Below, one piece after another: positions 24,839-36,972 of a DNA stretch of 49,019 bases. The translations under genes were made by a program, and so were the position numbers. The stretch spans positions 1 to 49,019 of the forward strand of contig JAINCR010000037.1 of the NCBI GenBank assembly GCA_036574215.1, given 5' to 3'. How positions within the stretch are numbered: position 1 is the stretch's first letter; each line of letters opens with the position of its first letter. Source of the stretch: Caldisericaceae bacterium (lineage in GTDB: Bacteria; Caldisericota; Caldisericia; Caldisericales; Caldisericaceae). The notes beneath the pieces were generated by a model. The model had not been told where the DNA came from. It did no database searches and worked only from the letters and a program-made list of their open reading frames with translations.

Positions 24839-24882
24839 ATGCAAAAGAGGAATATAGAAGAAATCAAGCAAAGTGCAATTAG
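24721..24882 (+). pseudogene. Start-less protein-like frame, possible gene remnant
   Basis: A 53-codon open frame bounded by TAA at 24718 and TAG at 24880, with no ATG, GTG or TTG near its beginning. The peptide includes EEKLAHIETYRNYAF and TDEELLKISHKFINRRMYKY, amphipathic and charged like a real helical protein, and it overlaps the HTH gene in another frame. It could be a decayed small gene or chance; I do not recognise a family. Confidence 0.25.
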
Positions 24883-25129
24883 TAAATTAAAAGACGATGA
24901 TTATAACATCATCTACGAGATATACTTTAAGCATACTTCTATTCATAAACTATCAAGAAAGCTTGGCATCTCAAAGCTTGCGGTAAGATATAGAAAGCAA
25001 AGGGCACTAAGAAATTTAAAAAGTATTATTTTAATACAACAATTGCAAAGAAAGAAAGTCATAACTTTCAAAATAAAAAGAAGAAAGAAACTCAAGCAAA
25101 AACTTGCAAAATATTTATATTTTATATAA
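24839..25129 (+). CDS. Small sigma-70 region 4-like helix-turn-helix protein
   Basis: A 96-residue very basic protein. Residues about 13-60 (SKLKDDDYNIIYEIYFKHTS, then HKLSRKLGISKLAVRYRKQRALRNLK) align by eye with sigma factor region 4, the -35-recognition HTH, but sigma regions 2 and 3 are absent. Similar short proteins with YRKQRAL occur in conjugative and phage-like elements of Firmicutes. The C-terminal third is a lysine/arginine-rich tail (KIKRRKKLKQKLAKYL). A CGGAGGATG site lies 5 to 7 bases before the ATG. It opens the accessory stretch and hints at mobile-element ancestry; a DNA-binding role is inferred. Confidence 0.7.
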   Translation: MQKRNIEEIKQSAISKLKDDDYNIIYEIYFKHTSIHKLSRKLGISKLAVRYRKQRALRNLKSIILIQQLQRKKVITFKIKRRKKLKQKLAKYLYFI

Positions 25130-25205
25130 AATCATTATTTGAATATTTATGTATTTAAGACGAGTTTCTCATAATTAGAAACTCAAGAGTTGTGGAAAGT
25201 TAACT

Positions 25206-25940
25206 ATGTTTCCAAAGGAGATGAGCTATAGAAATACCTACATTTTCGGAGTAGTGTATGCTCTTTGCTTTTTAATCTCTGCTGCAGTAATAAATTACTT
25301 TACCTGGTCTCCTGGACCCACTGAGGCTAATTCAAAACTTTTTATTTTTGCTATTATTTTCTGGACGTTACAATACTTGCCAATATTTATATTTACGAAA
25401 TATGCTGATTGGAAAATAAAAGATTTTGGATATGTTCTGAATTACAAAGTTCTTGCATTCACTGCCTTTGTAGTTGTAATAAGTATGCTTACTGCTATCT
25501 TCAACATGCATAATCTATACGTTAATTATATTAATGTCAAAAGTTTTATAAATGTATTAGTAGAGACATATGCAAGAACAGGTGAAGAAGTGTTTACCCG
25601 TGGCTTTTTATACGAACTGATTTTTAGGTTATTCAAAAATAAAAAAAGACCATGGCTGTGGGCTATCTTGATTTCAAGTATTTGTTTTGCAATCGTTCAT
25701 ACACAGACTTTTCTTCCTGAAAGTGGAACAAGAATGATAGATGTATTTGAAGCAGCTTTATTACTCTCACTCATAAGATATTGGACAGGATCCATTCTTC
25801 CTGGGATTGTAATCCATATTGCAATAGAATTAAGAAATCTTTCTGGTGTGATTGGTGCGATTTTTGGTATTTTATTCTATTATCTATTTGTTTTCTTAGC
25901 TTATAAAAAAGGTGAAGATGTAATTGAGAAAAGAGCTTAA
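25206..25940 (+). CDS. CPBP-family intramembrane glutamic endopeptidase
   Basis: A 244-residue membrane protein with about seven hydrophobic segments and the CPBP/ABI (Rce1-like) motifs in order: the EExxxR motif (Glu127, Glu128, Arg132, in TGEEVFTRGF), FAIVHT (His165), and a late HIAIE (His204). Such proteases act inside the membrane in prenyl-protein processing, bacteriocin self-immunity or unknown roles. The ribosome binding site is weak (GGAAAG); a second in-frame ATG at 25221 has AAAGGAG too close to it. No bacteriocin gene is recognisable nearby. Confidence 0.85.
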   Translation: MFPKEMSYRNTYIFGVVYALCFLISAAVINYFTWSPGPTEANSKLFIFAIIFWTLQYLPIFIFTKYADWKIKDFGYVLNYKVLAFTAFVVVISMLTAIFNMHNLYVNYINVKSFINVLVETYARTGEEVFTRGFLYELIFRLFKNKKRPWLWAILISSICFAIVHTQTFLPESGTRMIDVFEAALLLSLIRYWTGSILPGIVIHIAIELRNLSGVIGAIFGILFYYLFVFLAYKKGEDVIEKRA

Positions 25941-26335: not shown

Positions 26336-27253
26336 ATGGACATTTATTCGATAAAAGATGGAAATTTAACTCATATAGAAGAAGTTGATTTTAAACTGGA
26401 AAAGGACATTCAGAAAATATGTGATGATAATCTCAAAGAATTGTTTGGCTTGGAATTTGTGAAAGCTCAGTTTACAATCCAAAATTTTAGAATTGATACT
26501 CTTGCATTTGACGAGAAGGCAAAGGCGTTTGTTGTAATTGAATATAAAAAGGACGAGAACTTTAGTGTTATAGACCAGGGATACGCATACCTATCTTTGG
26601 TGCTTAATAATAAGGCTGAGTGTGTCCTTGTATACAATGAGAGTAAGAAAAAGCCAATTAAAAAGGATGATGTGGATTGGACACAAACAAGAGTAGTGTT
26701 TATTGCTCCGTCATTTACAACATATCAGATACAATCAATAAACTTTAAGGATTTGCCGATAGAATTATGGGAAATAAAGAAGTATGCAAATGAAACAATA
26801 AGTATTGAGCAAATACAATCGTTTGGAGCAAGTGAATCAATAAAAACACTTACCAATAAAAGCAAAACTTTTGCTAACGTTAGTAAAGAGATTAAAGTTT
26901 ATACTGAAGATGACCATTTGTTATACGTTCCAGATGAGATAAAAGAGCTTTACGAAAAGTTTAAGGCATCTGTGCTATCAATTGGCAGCGATATCAAAAT
27001 CAAGCCGAAAAAGAAATACATAGCATTTGTTAGTAAATCAAATTTTACGGATGTAGAGATCCACAAGAAAGAATTAAAAGTTTATTTGAATCTTAAAAAA
27101 GGTGAGTTATATGACCCAAAGGGTTTAGCAAGGGACATTTCTGAGGTTGGCCATTGGGGAAATGGAGATTATCAATTAAAAATCAGTAGCGATGAGGAGA
27201 TGGATTACATTCTCTCATTAGTTAAACAGTCCTACAAGAAAAATTCTGTCTAA
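26336..27253 (+). CDS. PD-(D/E)XK nuclease-like protein with C-terminal DUF5655
   Basis: A 305-residue protein in two parts. The N-terminal half has a PD-(D/E)XK-type core: Glu22 in the first helix (KLEKDIQ), Asp54 in FRIDTLAFD, and Glu69-Tyr70-Lys71 in VVIEYKK, followed by QGYAYLSLVL. The C-terminal part (about 205-302, VPDEIKELYEKFKASVLS, then GELYDPKGLARDI and VGHWGNGDYQLKI) is DUF5655. Proteins of this type are scattered in bacteria and archaea, with DNA cleavage or defence suspected but not shown. It has a strong ribosome binding site and its own -10, so it looks like a stand-alone unit. Confidence 0.8.
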   Translation: MDIYSIKDGNLTHIEEVDFKLEKDIQKICDDNLKELFGLEFVKAQFTIQNFRIDTLAFDEKAKAFVVIEYKKDENFSVIDQGYAYLSLVLNNKAECVLVYNESKKKPIKKDDVDWTQTRVVFIAPSFTTYQIQSINFKDLPIELWEIKKYANETISIEQIQSFGASESIKTLTNKSKTFANVSKEIKVYTEDDHLLYVPDEIKELYEKFKASVLSIGSDIKIKPKKKYIAFVSKSNFTDVEIHKKELKVYLNLKKGELYDPKGLARDISEVGHWGNGDYQLKISSDEEMDYILSLVKQSYKKNSV

Positions 27254-27480: not shown

Positions 27481-27514
27481 CTAAAAACAAAACCTCCTAC
27501 CATTTGGTAGGAGG
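27481..27514 (-). terminator. Intrinsic terminator, minus strand
   Basis: A 10-bp GC-containing perfect stem (27514 to 27493) with a 2-base formal loop, followed on the minus strand by TTTTGTTTTT (27492 to 27483). This is the clearest intrinsic terminator in the window. It would end the candidate small RNA or any read-through from moeA. Confidence 0.75.
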
Positions 27515-27561
27515 CGAGAGTAAAAAGAAAGTAAATGAGAGAGAAAAGAAAGGAGATGTGC
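27481..27561 (-). ncRNA. Candidate C/U-rich small RNA with intrinsic terminator
   Basis: Minus strand: TATAAT at 27573 to 27568 predicts a start near 27561. The transcript of about 80 nt begins GCACATCTCCTTTC, continues as an almost pure C/U tract, and ends in a 10-bp perfect stem (CCTCCTACCA, loop AA, TGGTAGGAGG) followed by TTTTGTTTTT. The single-stranded part is complementary to Shine-Dalgarno-type sequence (AAAGGAGAT). No open frame of note is inside. Predicted from the sequence only. Confidence 0.45.
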
Positions 27562-27567
27562 AAGTAT

Positions 27568-27576
27568 ATTATACTC
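27568..27576 (-). promoter_or_regulatory. -10 element of the candidate small RNA
   Basis: Minus strand TTGAG followed by TATAAT (27573 to 27568) and then ATAC. No good -35 at the expected distance (ATACGG), so promoter strength is uncertain. Confidence 0.4.
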
Positions 27577-27612: not shown

Positions 27613-27920
27613 GTTAAAAAGCCCTGATTTTTTGTTTGAAATCTTGTAACACAACTTAATAAAGAAAAGGATTTAATTAAACATATCTTCTTAATTTTTG
27701 AATATATCTTAGTTAATGAAAACTGCTTTGAAAAGGTCCTAAATTTTTATTTTGCAACGTAACTTTACGAATAAAAACCTCATTTGAAAAAGCCCACTTT
27801 CATAATTTTGCAATAAAAAGCTTTTTTAAATTTCGAGGAAATAGAGACGAATGAAACTTTTTTAAAATAAAAACCTTTTTAGAATAAAAACCTCTCTTAG
27901 AATGAAAAAACCTTTTTTTA
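27613..27920. repeat. AT-rich tract of degenerate direct repeats
   Basis: Recurring words in the same direction: AATAAAAACCT at about 27770, 27867 and 27884, a variant GAATGAAAAAACCT at about 27900, and a longer unit TTTGAAAA(A/G)G(T/C)CC followed about 16 bases later by ATTTTGCAA at about 27726 and 27784. Spacing is irregular (roughly 17-58 bases), so this is not a CRISPR array. Confidence 0.45.
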
Positions 27921-27965
27921 ATTCTCCAACAATTTTATTATCCTATACGCTATCAGTATTACTTC

Positions 27966-28299
27966 TTAACTTTTAATGCATTCAAATGGTCTTAAATTAC
28001 CCTTGCCATCGCCTTTAATAATTCCAAGTTGTTTTAATGTTTTTACTTCATTTATGTATTTATAACCTTCTCCAATATCAAAAAAAGGCTCGCCATTTCT
28101 TAAAGCATCAAGCAATTGAATGTAAGGAAAATTTTTGCGAGGACACTTAGTTGATTTGCCTTACCCATAGTATCAAATATGACATCGTTATGACTAAAAA
28201 TATTGTTTAAGTATATAAAAATGAGATATGATGTTGCTGGATAGAGTTTAGTCTTCTTAACTACTTACTAAATCTAATAGATTGCCCTGATACTTTAGA
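27966..28299 (-). pseudogene. Frameshifted C-terminal remnant of an unknown gene
   Basis: On the minus strand, three consecutive reading-frame pieces join into one plausible protein end: LKYQGNLLDLVSS (28299 to about 28255, then stop), KKTKLYPATSYLIFIY through DVIFDTMGKANQLSVLAK (28264 to about 28135), then FPYIQLLDALRNGEPFFDIG through LKQLGIIKGDGKGNLRPFEC to a TAA at 27966. The second shift falls in an A/T run near 28127-28136. The last piece looks like a winged-helix tail. I do not recognise the family, and no start or ribosome binding site survives. It abuts the moeA stop. Confidence 0.5.
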
Positions 28300-28303
28300 G
28301 TTA

Positions 28304-29530
28304 TTAATCAAAGAAATAAAATTCAACGATTGAATTTGCAGTAATTCCCTCAAATTGGGAAGGGATTATAAAATATCCCTGGGCTTCCTTTATTGCAAAG
28401 GAAAATGAAGAGTCAGCAAGTATTGGCTCTATAAAATTTTTATTATCTTTACTGACTAATTTTCCTAAGATAAACTCATCTCTTCCTTTTCTTGAGTTAA
28501 CATCTTCTGAAAGTATGCCGTAGATTTTTCTTTTTTCGTAGTTAAAACCAAGTTTTTTGTAGATAAGTTCCTTTACCACTAAAGAGTAAATAAGAAATGT
28601 TGCAAGAGGATTGCCTGATAATCCAATAACTAATTTATTTGAAATGCTTGCAAAAATGGTAGGTTTACCAGGCGAAACGTTGATCCCGTGGATTAACACT
28701 CCTGGGTTACCTAACTCATTAATTGTTTTAACTGTAAAATCTAACTCACCTTTACTTGTTCCACCAGTCATTAAAACGATATCATTTTGGTCCAAAGCAG
28801 TTTTTAAAACTTTTTTAATCTTTGCTTCAGAATCTTCAATTATTCCGTAATTAGTCGGATTAAAACCATCTTTTATAAGAAGTGAATGAAGGGTTATGTT
28901 ATTAAAATCGTATATCTTGCCAATTGGTAATGGATATACTTCAGTTAGTTCACTTCCAGTTGAAAAAAAACCAACTTTTACTTTTTTGTAAACAGGGATC
29001 ATTCTATTGCCAGTTGTATTAAGAATGCCAGAAACTTTGGGTGTAATTCTTTCACCCTTTTTTAAAATTAAAGTATTGGATTTTATTTCCTCACCTTCGT
29101 TAAAAATATTTTCTCCTTCGGTTACTGTTTTATAAACAAAGAGCGTATCATTTACTAATTCAGTATTCTCAATCATAACAACTGCATCCGCATTTAAAGG
29201 AACAGCGCCACCAGTTGGAACATACACAGCAGAATTCGGATAAGTCAAATCAATTGGGTTTGAACCTATTTCAATTTTGCCCAAAAGTTTAAGCATCACA
29301 GGGTTTTCAGCACTTGCTCCTTTTACCTCGTTATGTCTCACGGCATACCCGTCAACAAGTGATTTTTTAAATGGAGGAAGGGGAATTTTAGCATAAATAT
29401 CCTCTGAAGTGAAATACCCTAAAGATTCAAAAACTGGAAGTGTAGTTTTTTCAATAGGGATTTCAAAATAGTTTAATATGTTTTCTTCAATGTAAGTTAA
29501 AGATATAACTCTTAAAAACTTCTCGCCCAT
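28304..29530 (-). CDS. moeA: Molybdopterin molybdenumtransferase MoeA
   Basis: Inserts molybdate (or tungstate) into adenylylated molybdopterin to form the molybdenum cofactor. The 408-residue protein has the N-terminal LPPFKKSLVDGYAVR (about 49-63, matching the family's DGYA motif), GEIEIGS-like strands, the MPT-binding LMTGGTSKGELDFT, and SGNPLATFLIY with a C-terminal beta domain. No other cofactor genes (moaA, mogA, mobA) are in the window. It overlaps etfA by 19 bases and is the last gene of a long operon. Its placement behind ETF genes suggests a redox system using a Mo/W enzyme encoded elsewhere. Confidence 0.92.
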   Translation of the reverse strand: MGEKFLRVISLTYIEENILNYFEIPIEKTTLPVFESLGYFTSEDIYAKIPLPPFKKSLVDGYAVRHNEVKGASAENPVMLKLLGKIEIGSNPIDLTYPNSAVYVPTGGAVPLNADAVVMIENTELVNDTLFVYKTVTEGENIFNEGEEIKSNTLILKKGERITPKVSGILNTTGNRMIPVYKKVKVGFFSTGSELTEVYPLPIGKIYDFNNITLHSLLIKDGFNPTNYGIIEDSEAKIKKVLKTALDQNDIVLMTGGTSKGELDFTVKTINELGNPGVLIHGINVSPGKPTIFASISNKLVIGLSGNPLATFLIYSLVVKELIYKKLGFNYEKRKIYGILSEDVNSRKGRDEFILGKLVSKDNKNFIEPILADSSFSFAIKEAQGYFIIPSQFEGITANSIVEFYFFD

Positions 29531-32058: not shown

Positions 32059-32564
32059 AAATTCTGGTATTTTCTTAAAAGTTCTTCTGGCAATTCATAC
32101 CCTTCTTCGACTTCAAGTACTTCGATGTCGTCAATATAATCAGTAAAAATAACACCTTTTAAATGGTCTATTTCATGCTGAAAAACCCGAGCTTTTAAAC
32201 CTGTTATTTCTTCTTCACGTTTTTTCCCATTGAGGTCAAAATACCTAACAAAAATCTTAGATGGCCTTTCAACAACACCATACACATGCGGAACAGACAA
32301 ACATCCTTCTTCTTCTTTTTCTTTTTCGCCTTTTTTCTCTAATATTTCAGGATTAATAACTACACCACTATCATCATCAATCTCGTAAATAAAAAATGAT
32401 TGTAGAATCCCAACCTGAGTTGCAGCAAGACCAATGCCCTTAGGTGTATTATTTCTCATTGTTTTAAACATATCATCTACAATACTCAGTAATTTTTTAT
32501 CAACGTTTGTTACTTTGTTTGCTTTTTTCCTTAATACAGGATGTCCGTAAATATAAATTTTCAT
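32055..32564 (-). CDS. def: Peptide deformylase
   Basis: Removes the N-formyl group from nascent proteins; ferrous or zinc metalloenzyme. All three motifs are intact: GIGLAATQ (43-50), EGCLSVP with metal ligand Cys88 (86-92), and HEIDH with His130, Glu131 and His134. The 169-residue length is standard. A GGAG site precedes the ATG; it overlaps tsaC upstream and fmt downstream by 4 bases each. Confidence 0.97.
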   Translation of the reverse strand: MKIYIYGHPVLRKKANKVTNVDKKLLSIVDDMFKTMRNNTPKGIGLAATQVGILQSFFIYEIDDDSGVVINPEILEKKGEKEKEEEGCLSVPHVYGVVERPSKIFVRYFDLNGKKREEEITGLKARVFQHEIDHLKGVIFTDYIDDIEVLEVEEGYELPEELLRKYQNL

Positions 32565-35597: not shown

Positions 35598-36972
35598 CGA
35601 CCACTATACTCCTTAAAAGTTCTTCATTTGATTTTGTTTGTTTTAACATTTCAAAGAGTCTTTCCAATGCTTCAGCTGGCTCAAGAGAACTAATAAATCT
35701 TCTGAGGGTAAGAATTTTTTGATATTCATCACCTTTATACAACAACTCTTCTCTACGTGTTCCTGATTTTTTAATATCGATTGCAGGGAAAATTCTTTCT
35801 TCTGCAAGTTCTCTATCAAGGACAATTTCCATATTTCCTGTGCCTTTGAACTCTTCATATATAACTTGGTCAAGTTTTGATCCTGTATCAATCAAAGCAG
35901 TTGCAAGAATTGTAAGGCTTCCTCCGTTCAATATGTTTCTTGCTGCTCCAAGGAATTTCTTTGGTCCTCTTATCGCCTGTGGGTCTAATCCTCCTGAAAG
36001 AGTCTTACCACTTGAAGTGCTCAACAGGTTGTATGCTCTCGTTAATCTTGTAATACCATCAAGTAGAATCATTACATCCTTACCAACTTCAACGAGTCTT
36101 TTAGCCTTCTCAAGAGCCAATTCAACAACTCTAATATGGTTTTCTGGTGGTTGATCAAAAGTAGAGCTTACAACTTCGGCTACGACGCTATTTTTCATAT
36201 CTGTTACTTCCTCTGGTCGCTCATCTATGAGAAGAATCATCAAATAAATTTCAGGATGGTTTTTCACAACACTTTTTGCGATTTCCTTCATTAGTGTAGT
36301 CTTGCCAGCTTTTGGTGCTGAAACAATTAAACCTCTCTGTCCTTTTCCCAAAGGAGCAATCAAATCAACTACACGTAAGGCAAGGTTTCCGTTAGGTGTC
36401 TCAAGGACAATTCTCTCTGTTGGATAGTAAGGGGTTAAATTTTCAAAAAGAGGCCTTTTGAAAAACCCACTAACTTTTATGCCGTTAATCGTATCAATAT
36501 TAACAAGTGCCGGATATCTTTCTCCTTCTTTTTGTGGTTTTTGAACTGGTCCAGAGACAACATCTCCAGTCCTTAAACCAAATTTTCTTATTAGAGGCGG
36601 TGCAACGTAAATATCAGTAAATGCTGGAAAATAGTTAGCTCTTAAGAAACCGTAGCCATCAGGATGTGCTTCAAAAAGTCCTTTAAAGTAGAGTTGATTA
36701 CCAGTTTCTTTCTTTGGTTGTTCTGAAGTGCTTGTATCATAAATCGATTTTTCCAATGTCTCTTTTTCTACAACACGGTCTTCTTTCTCTTTTACTGTAG
36801 ATTCGTTGTAATCGCTTCCCTTTTTAGAAATTAATTCAAAAATTGCTTGCACAAGTTCGTCTTTTTTATAGTGAGAGTAATTTTTAAGTTTCACAATCTG
36901 GGCAACTTTATATAGTTCCCTTGCAGTCATTGCTTTTAAGTCTTCAACAGTCAACCTATAAATTTCTTCCAT
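35587..36972 (-). CDS. rho: Transcription termination factor Rho
   Basis: Hexameric RNA-dependent ATPase that ends transcription. The Rho_N helical domain (about 4-48) and a charged linker (about 50-90) precede the cold-shock-like RNA-binding domain ([21 protein letters not shown]), then Walker [10 protein letters not shown] (218-226) and Walker [12 protein letters not shown]. The Q-loop/R-loop region [10 protein letters not shown](N)GGS is intact. At 461 residues it is slightly long because of the linker. It has a GGAGGAAT site. Relevant to the window: neighbouring convergent genes lack intrinsic terminators. Confidence 0.96.

Follow-up and report, generated by a model that had tools for sequence, protein, structure and literature searches.

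In a bacterium of the Caldisericaceae, probably a thermophile, a real, strong, and unusual terminator signal is found between two genes. Read along the minus strand of the window (the whole 49,019-nt stretch analyzed here) from 27573 to 27481, the element presents a TATAAT hexamer, a 45-nt pyrimidine tract, a 10-bp hairpin, and a U-rich tail, in that order (Table 1). The explanation that we favor, and to which we give an even chance, is that the element works as a transcription stop, the terminator being strong and Rho-independent and its pyrimidine leader unstructured. The first-pass annotation had instead read the same stretch as a candidate small RNA that blocks Shine-Dalgarno (SD) sequences; a C/U-rich small RNA could well have this layout, but the independent tests at hand did not support such a regulator.

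As a terminator, the element would work on polymerase arriving from the genes of the moeA run, or on polymerase initiating weakly within the non-coding stretch, and the hairpin would halt it before antisense entry into the convergent PDC-S18 gene. Both the stop of polymerase at the hairpin and the position of the RNA start are points that we infer, and the pyrimidine tract would most simply serve to keep the hairpin clear of competing pairings.

Table 1. The minus-strand element and its neighbors, in coordinates of the window.
Feature	Position	Strand	Basis
TATAAT hexamer, no matching -35; weak promoter evidence	27568..27573	-	hexamer search, promoter scan
Pyrimidine tract, 40/45 C/U, predicted unpaired; contains a 12-mer resembling the 16S tail at 11/12 positions	27516..27560	-	composition count, fold
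Intrinsic terminator hairpin, 10 pairs, 4-nt loop	27492..27515	-	terminator scan, fold
U-rich tail of terminator	27482..27491	-	terminator scan, sequence
moeA, which closes the minus-strand run aimed at the terminator	28304..29530	-	ORF list, Pfam
DUF5655 protein, candidate defense gene PDC-S18, convergent neighbor	26336..27253	+	Pfam, PADLOC
49-aa S-layer homology (SLH) relic, upstream on the same strand	27966..28115	-	Pfam SLH 3.4e-6

Anatomy of the Element

A G-C-rich stem-loop with a U run directly after it, the mark of an intrinsic terminator, is found at 27515-27482; six of the ten pairs of the hairpin are G-C, and its predicted stability is -17.9 kcal/mol. The fold of the 89-nt element has a z-score of -3.87 against 200 shuffles. 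At 65 °C, a growth temperature of Caldisericum, the hairpin retains a computed -10 kcal/mol. To judge how rare such a structure is, the window and ten further stretches of the same genome (227,348 of 1,308,601 bases) were taken as background, in which 10 strict terminator-like sites were counted on both strands; the hairpin at 27515-27492 is the most stable among them, in keeping with the earlier description of a strong intrinsic terminator, the best in the window. Eight Markov-1 copies of this DNA yielded 1, 1, 2, 3, 2, 0, 0, and 0 strict sites, so the observed number exceeds chance and strict sites are real in this genome, while looser terminator patterns gave no excess (4, 7, and 5 observed vs. 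7.0, 9.1, and 7.2 in shuffles). Between 24914 and 38270, the hairpin is the only minus-strand terminator-like site among those listed.

The almost pure C/U single-stranded stretch that had been claimed is likewise present, as 40 of the 45 bases from 27560 to 27516 are pyrimidines and the tract is predicted to be 98% unpaired within an 83-nt RNA; the SD-like sequence AAAGGAGAT occurs on the opposite (plus) strand as described. Ahead of the other nine strict terminators, pyrimidines number only 14-24 of 45, making this the sole such tract. Across the 227 kb, 45-mers in which 41 or more bases are of one class, purine or pyrimidine, occur at two places, namely the element and 32304-32348 (the latter within a coding frame), and 20 Markov copies of the window contain none. 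The tract is statistically odd. A search of viral contigs returned no match to a 24-mer of the tract and a single match to the hairpin pattern, which is an ordinary-looking terminator in one contig.

Two further claims of the first-pass annotation stand in part. That no protein frame explains the element is correct in substance, although a 41-aa frame on the minus strand, which reads through the terminator, and a 46-aa frame on the plus strand do cross it; both were set aside as candidate small proteins, neither matching Pfam. The element does have its own TATAAT (first base 27573), about 7 nt ahead of the tract, but the hexamer is weak as a promoter: no -35 scores, and the site is missing from the output of a promoter scan that needs both -35 and -10 hexamers. 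Each strand of the window holds 39 copies of TATAAT (78 in total), and the probability of meeting one in 40 nt of random sequence with the same base composition is about 0.044. A promoter at 27573 is possible.

Gene Surroundings and the Lineage-Specific Insert

The minus-strand moeA and the plus-strand gene at 26336-27253 converge on the element, and six adjacent minus-strand ORFs (33136-28304) are all aimed at it, with the hairpin lying about 790 bases past the moeA stop. The DNA between the two genes is AT-rich and non-coding apart from the SLH relic, and no minus-strand frame is open across it; degenerate AATAAAAACCT-like short repeats are found in the part upstream of the element (27770-27922). 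The SLH relic has distant relatives at G001:C4 and G000:C59. The window aligns to genomes G002 and G004 up to about 24550 and again from about 28360, whereas the interval holding the element does not, except for pieces of the defense gene on other G002 contigs; the element therefore lies within a lineage-specific insert between rpsB and moeA. In G002 and G004, different genes come after moeA; we take them to be a regulator-like ORF in convergent orientation and a RecA/KaiC-like ATPase. The same insert carries, at 24839-25940 on the plus strand, a 96-aa protein resembling sigma-70 region 4 and a protease of the CPBP type.

The convergent neighbor matches the PADLOC PDC-S18 model at 2e-131. A copy 84% identical is present in G011, which belongs to another genus, and two pieces occur in G002, whereas the gene was not found in G001, G003, or G004 (G001 and G003 being incomplete). 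On this distribution, the gene has probably moved horizontally and is a candidate for a mobile phage-defense gene. A tie between the element and the defense gene was considered and rejected, as neither the G011 copy nor the two G002 pieces have the element downstream. Purine- or pyrimidine-rich 45-mers (41/45 and 39/45) do lie near the G011 and G002 defense genes, in repeats or in probable coding sequence as judged by eye. Downstream of the PDC-S18 homologue in G011 (locus L037, 2700-3100), a short repeat around 'CCTGAAATGAATTCAGGATGACAA' also recurs several times.

Competing Explanations

The terminator reading is favored by the reality of strict sites in this genome, by the hairpin being the only listed minus-strand site downstream of moeA, by the orientation of the genes, and by a like site (G000:C46:27957-27984) that ends an ordinary gene. 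Against it, some 790 bases beyond the moeA stop are far for that gene's own terminator, a tract of 40/45 as opposed to 14-24 is more extreme than a plain terminator needs, TATAAT is placed where the start of an 80-nt RNA would want one, and the tract is only 46% unpaired in a modelled 823-nt run-through RNA. A free-standing small RNA, about 80 nt long, that starts a few bases past TATAAT and uses its tract to pair with SD regions and lower translation as RsaI and LhrC do, strikes us as rather unlikely. Such an RNA would expose almost the whole tract, a 12-mer of the tract shares 11 of 12 positions with the 16S tail, TATAAT lies about 7 nt ahead of the tract, and predicted energies show stronger pairing of the tract with start regions than with gene interiors (medians of -13.7 vs. 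-9.4 kcal/mol; 208 crude gene models in 227 of 1309 kb). Ten shuffled tracts, however, bind the same start regions equally well (medians of -13.4 to -15.05 kcal/mol), so this pairing is what any C/U-rich RNA shows with purine-rich start regions; target prediction against 5' start regions, a check that the first-pass annotation had put forward, thus ranks the tract no better than shuffles of like composition. The small RNA is further disfavored by the missing -35, by the 11/12 matches to the 12-mer occurring 8 times in 454,696 strand-bases, by there being no second near-match in the genome to the 22-mer complement as an extended target (at most 3 mismatches), by predicted tract-SD pairing weakening to about -5 kcal/mol at 65 °C, and by the lack of a homologue in 60 relatives. 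Hfq was not found in five genomes of the genus, in a search whose control was positive in 5 of 14 known genomes; this absence is not decisive because LhrC acts without Hfq (PMC4132741). Among the part of the literature naming Caldisericum that was judged by title, no paper is about small RNAs. A possible RNA antisense to a small ORF on the plus strand, with the SD AAAGGAG, was rejected, there being no start codon at a usable distance.

The element may otherwise be what is left at the 3' end of a gene that decayed while its terminator persisted, an origin that we hold to be unlikely: the SLH relic, 450 bases upstream of the element and likewise on the minus strand, is surrounded by stops in each of the three frames, and the differing moeA neighbors in G002 and G004 indicate a rearranged interval, but the relic is only weakly like other SLH hits of the genus (46-49% over 27-38 aa), no parent gene with the same terminator was found, and relics should lose their hairpins, yet this hairpin is the strongest seen. 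Far less probable is a double terminator, in which the tract would be a loading site for Rho and the hairpin a second stop; Rho is encoded in the window (36475-36684, minus strand; PF07497, 2.7e-24), and the tract is C/U-rich with one G in 48 nt, but nine other 48-mers in the 227 kb score at least as high by a crude YC-minus-G count. The boldest proposal is a lineage-specific, Hfq-independent small RNA that would copy the anti-SD tail and compete with the 30S subunit at purine-rich starts, carried in an insert with a mobile phage-defense candidate in a probably deep-branching thermophile; such an independent invention of the RsaI/LhrC design appears quite improbable. If the RNA exists, C/U-rich SD-blocking small RNAs would extend well beyond Firmicutes, to a distant lineage in which no Hfq was detected. 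If the element is only a terminator, it would be a strong stop signal, as well as a warning that any pyrimidine tract resembles an anti-SD RNA in AT-rich genomes with purine-rich starts.

Conservation and Comparison With Known Systems

Conservation outside the strain, on which the first-pass annotation had beforehand staked its small RNA, was not seen: no homologue was found in four other species of the genus. A DNA search of 61 genomes (that of the strain itself and 60 relatives, four of them of the same genus) returned the strain's own copy as the only real one, the other matches being short pyrimidine or AT stretches; seven of these were viewed in their sequence context. A covariance search for the stem and C/U tract, also suggested at the outset, found no homologue in the 60 relatives with a single-sequence model (two nested rows of one DNA sequence, and hence weak) and with two congeners only 55-56% complete; weak hits arose in 10 of the 60 (E 0.02-1). 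Of the 15 listed places, the query aside, 13 were examined in context, and most were dismissed as coding-looking or as having no hairpin. L143 lies inside a long ORF (presumably DNA-ligase-like); a plain terminator accounts for L152, and gene terminators of the C46 type for L144 and L153.

Comparison with Rfam gave no family reaching its cut-off at the element, and the nearest under permissive settings, RsaOG (RF01775; 22.0 and 18.2 bits vs. a cut-off of 50, E 0.65-0.9), scores at chance level. RsaOG is the RsaI of Staphylococcus aureus, both names mapping to Teg24 (PMC2873960). The two share a pyrimidine-rich unpaired stretch right before a terminator hairpin with CAAAUG at the loop, but the element does not form the 5' stem-loop that RsaOG has, and the lineages are unrelated. 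Listeria LhrC similarly has a CU-rich, G-poor single-stranded stretch before its terminator, and it differs in that it carries UCCC at three sites, exists in five copies, and is conserved across Listeria (PMC4132741); the element has no UCCC, one copy, and no conservation found. The UCCC motif, which marks SD-binding small RNAs of low-GC bacteria (PMC4132741), is absent from the 83-nt sequence. Of the traits of UCCC-type small RNAs (the RsaE, LhrC, SprD, and FsrA kind), neither UCCC nor conservation within the genus (a trait not universal for small RNAs) is thus seen here. Staphylococcus IsrR is alike in its C-rich unpaired regions aimed at SD sequences, its AT-rich genome, and its terminator, and unlike in its three stem-loops, Fur boxes, and genus-wide conservation (PMC9410917).

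Closer parallels are offered by ordinary terminators of the genus. The best covariance hit in the strain's own genome after the query itself (G000:C46:27957-27984, plus strand, L111; E 0.06) has the CCTCCT/AGGAGGTTTT stem of the element, located 29 bases past a stop codon and after a short pyrimidine run, and its counterpart at G001:C18:4769, the two being the top hits in the genus other than the query, has the same CCTCCT/AGGAGG stem; this stem type therefore also serves gene ends in the genus. Both sites resemble the element in stem, U tail, and preceding pyrimidine run, but they stand directly after a gene, whereas about 790 bases devoid of intact genes come before the element, whose tract is much longer. 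The gene ahead of the strong terminator at G000:C46:27957-27984 encodes a 257-aa protein that contains two long repeats, nearly identical to each other.
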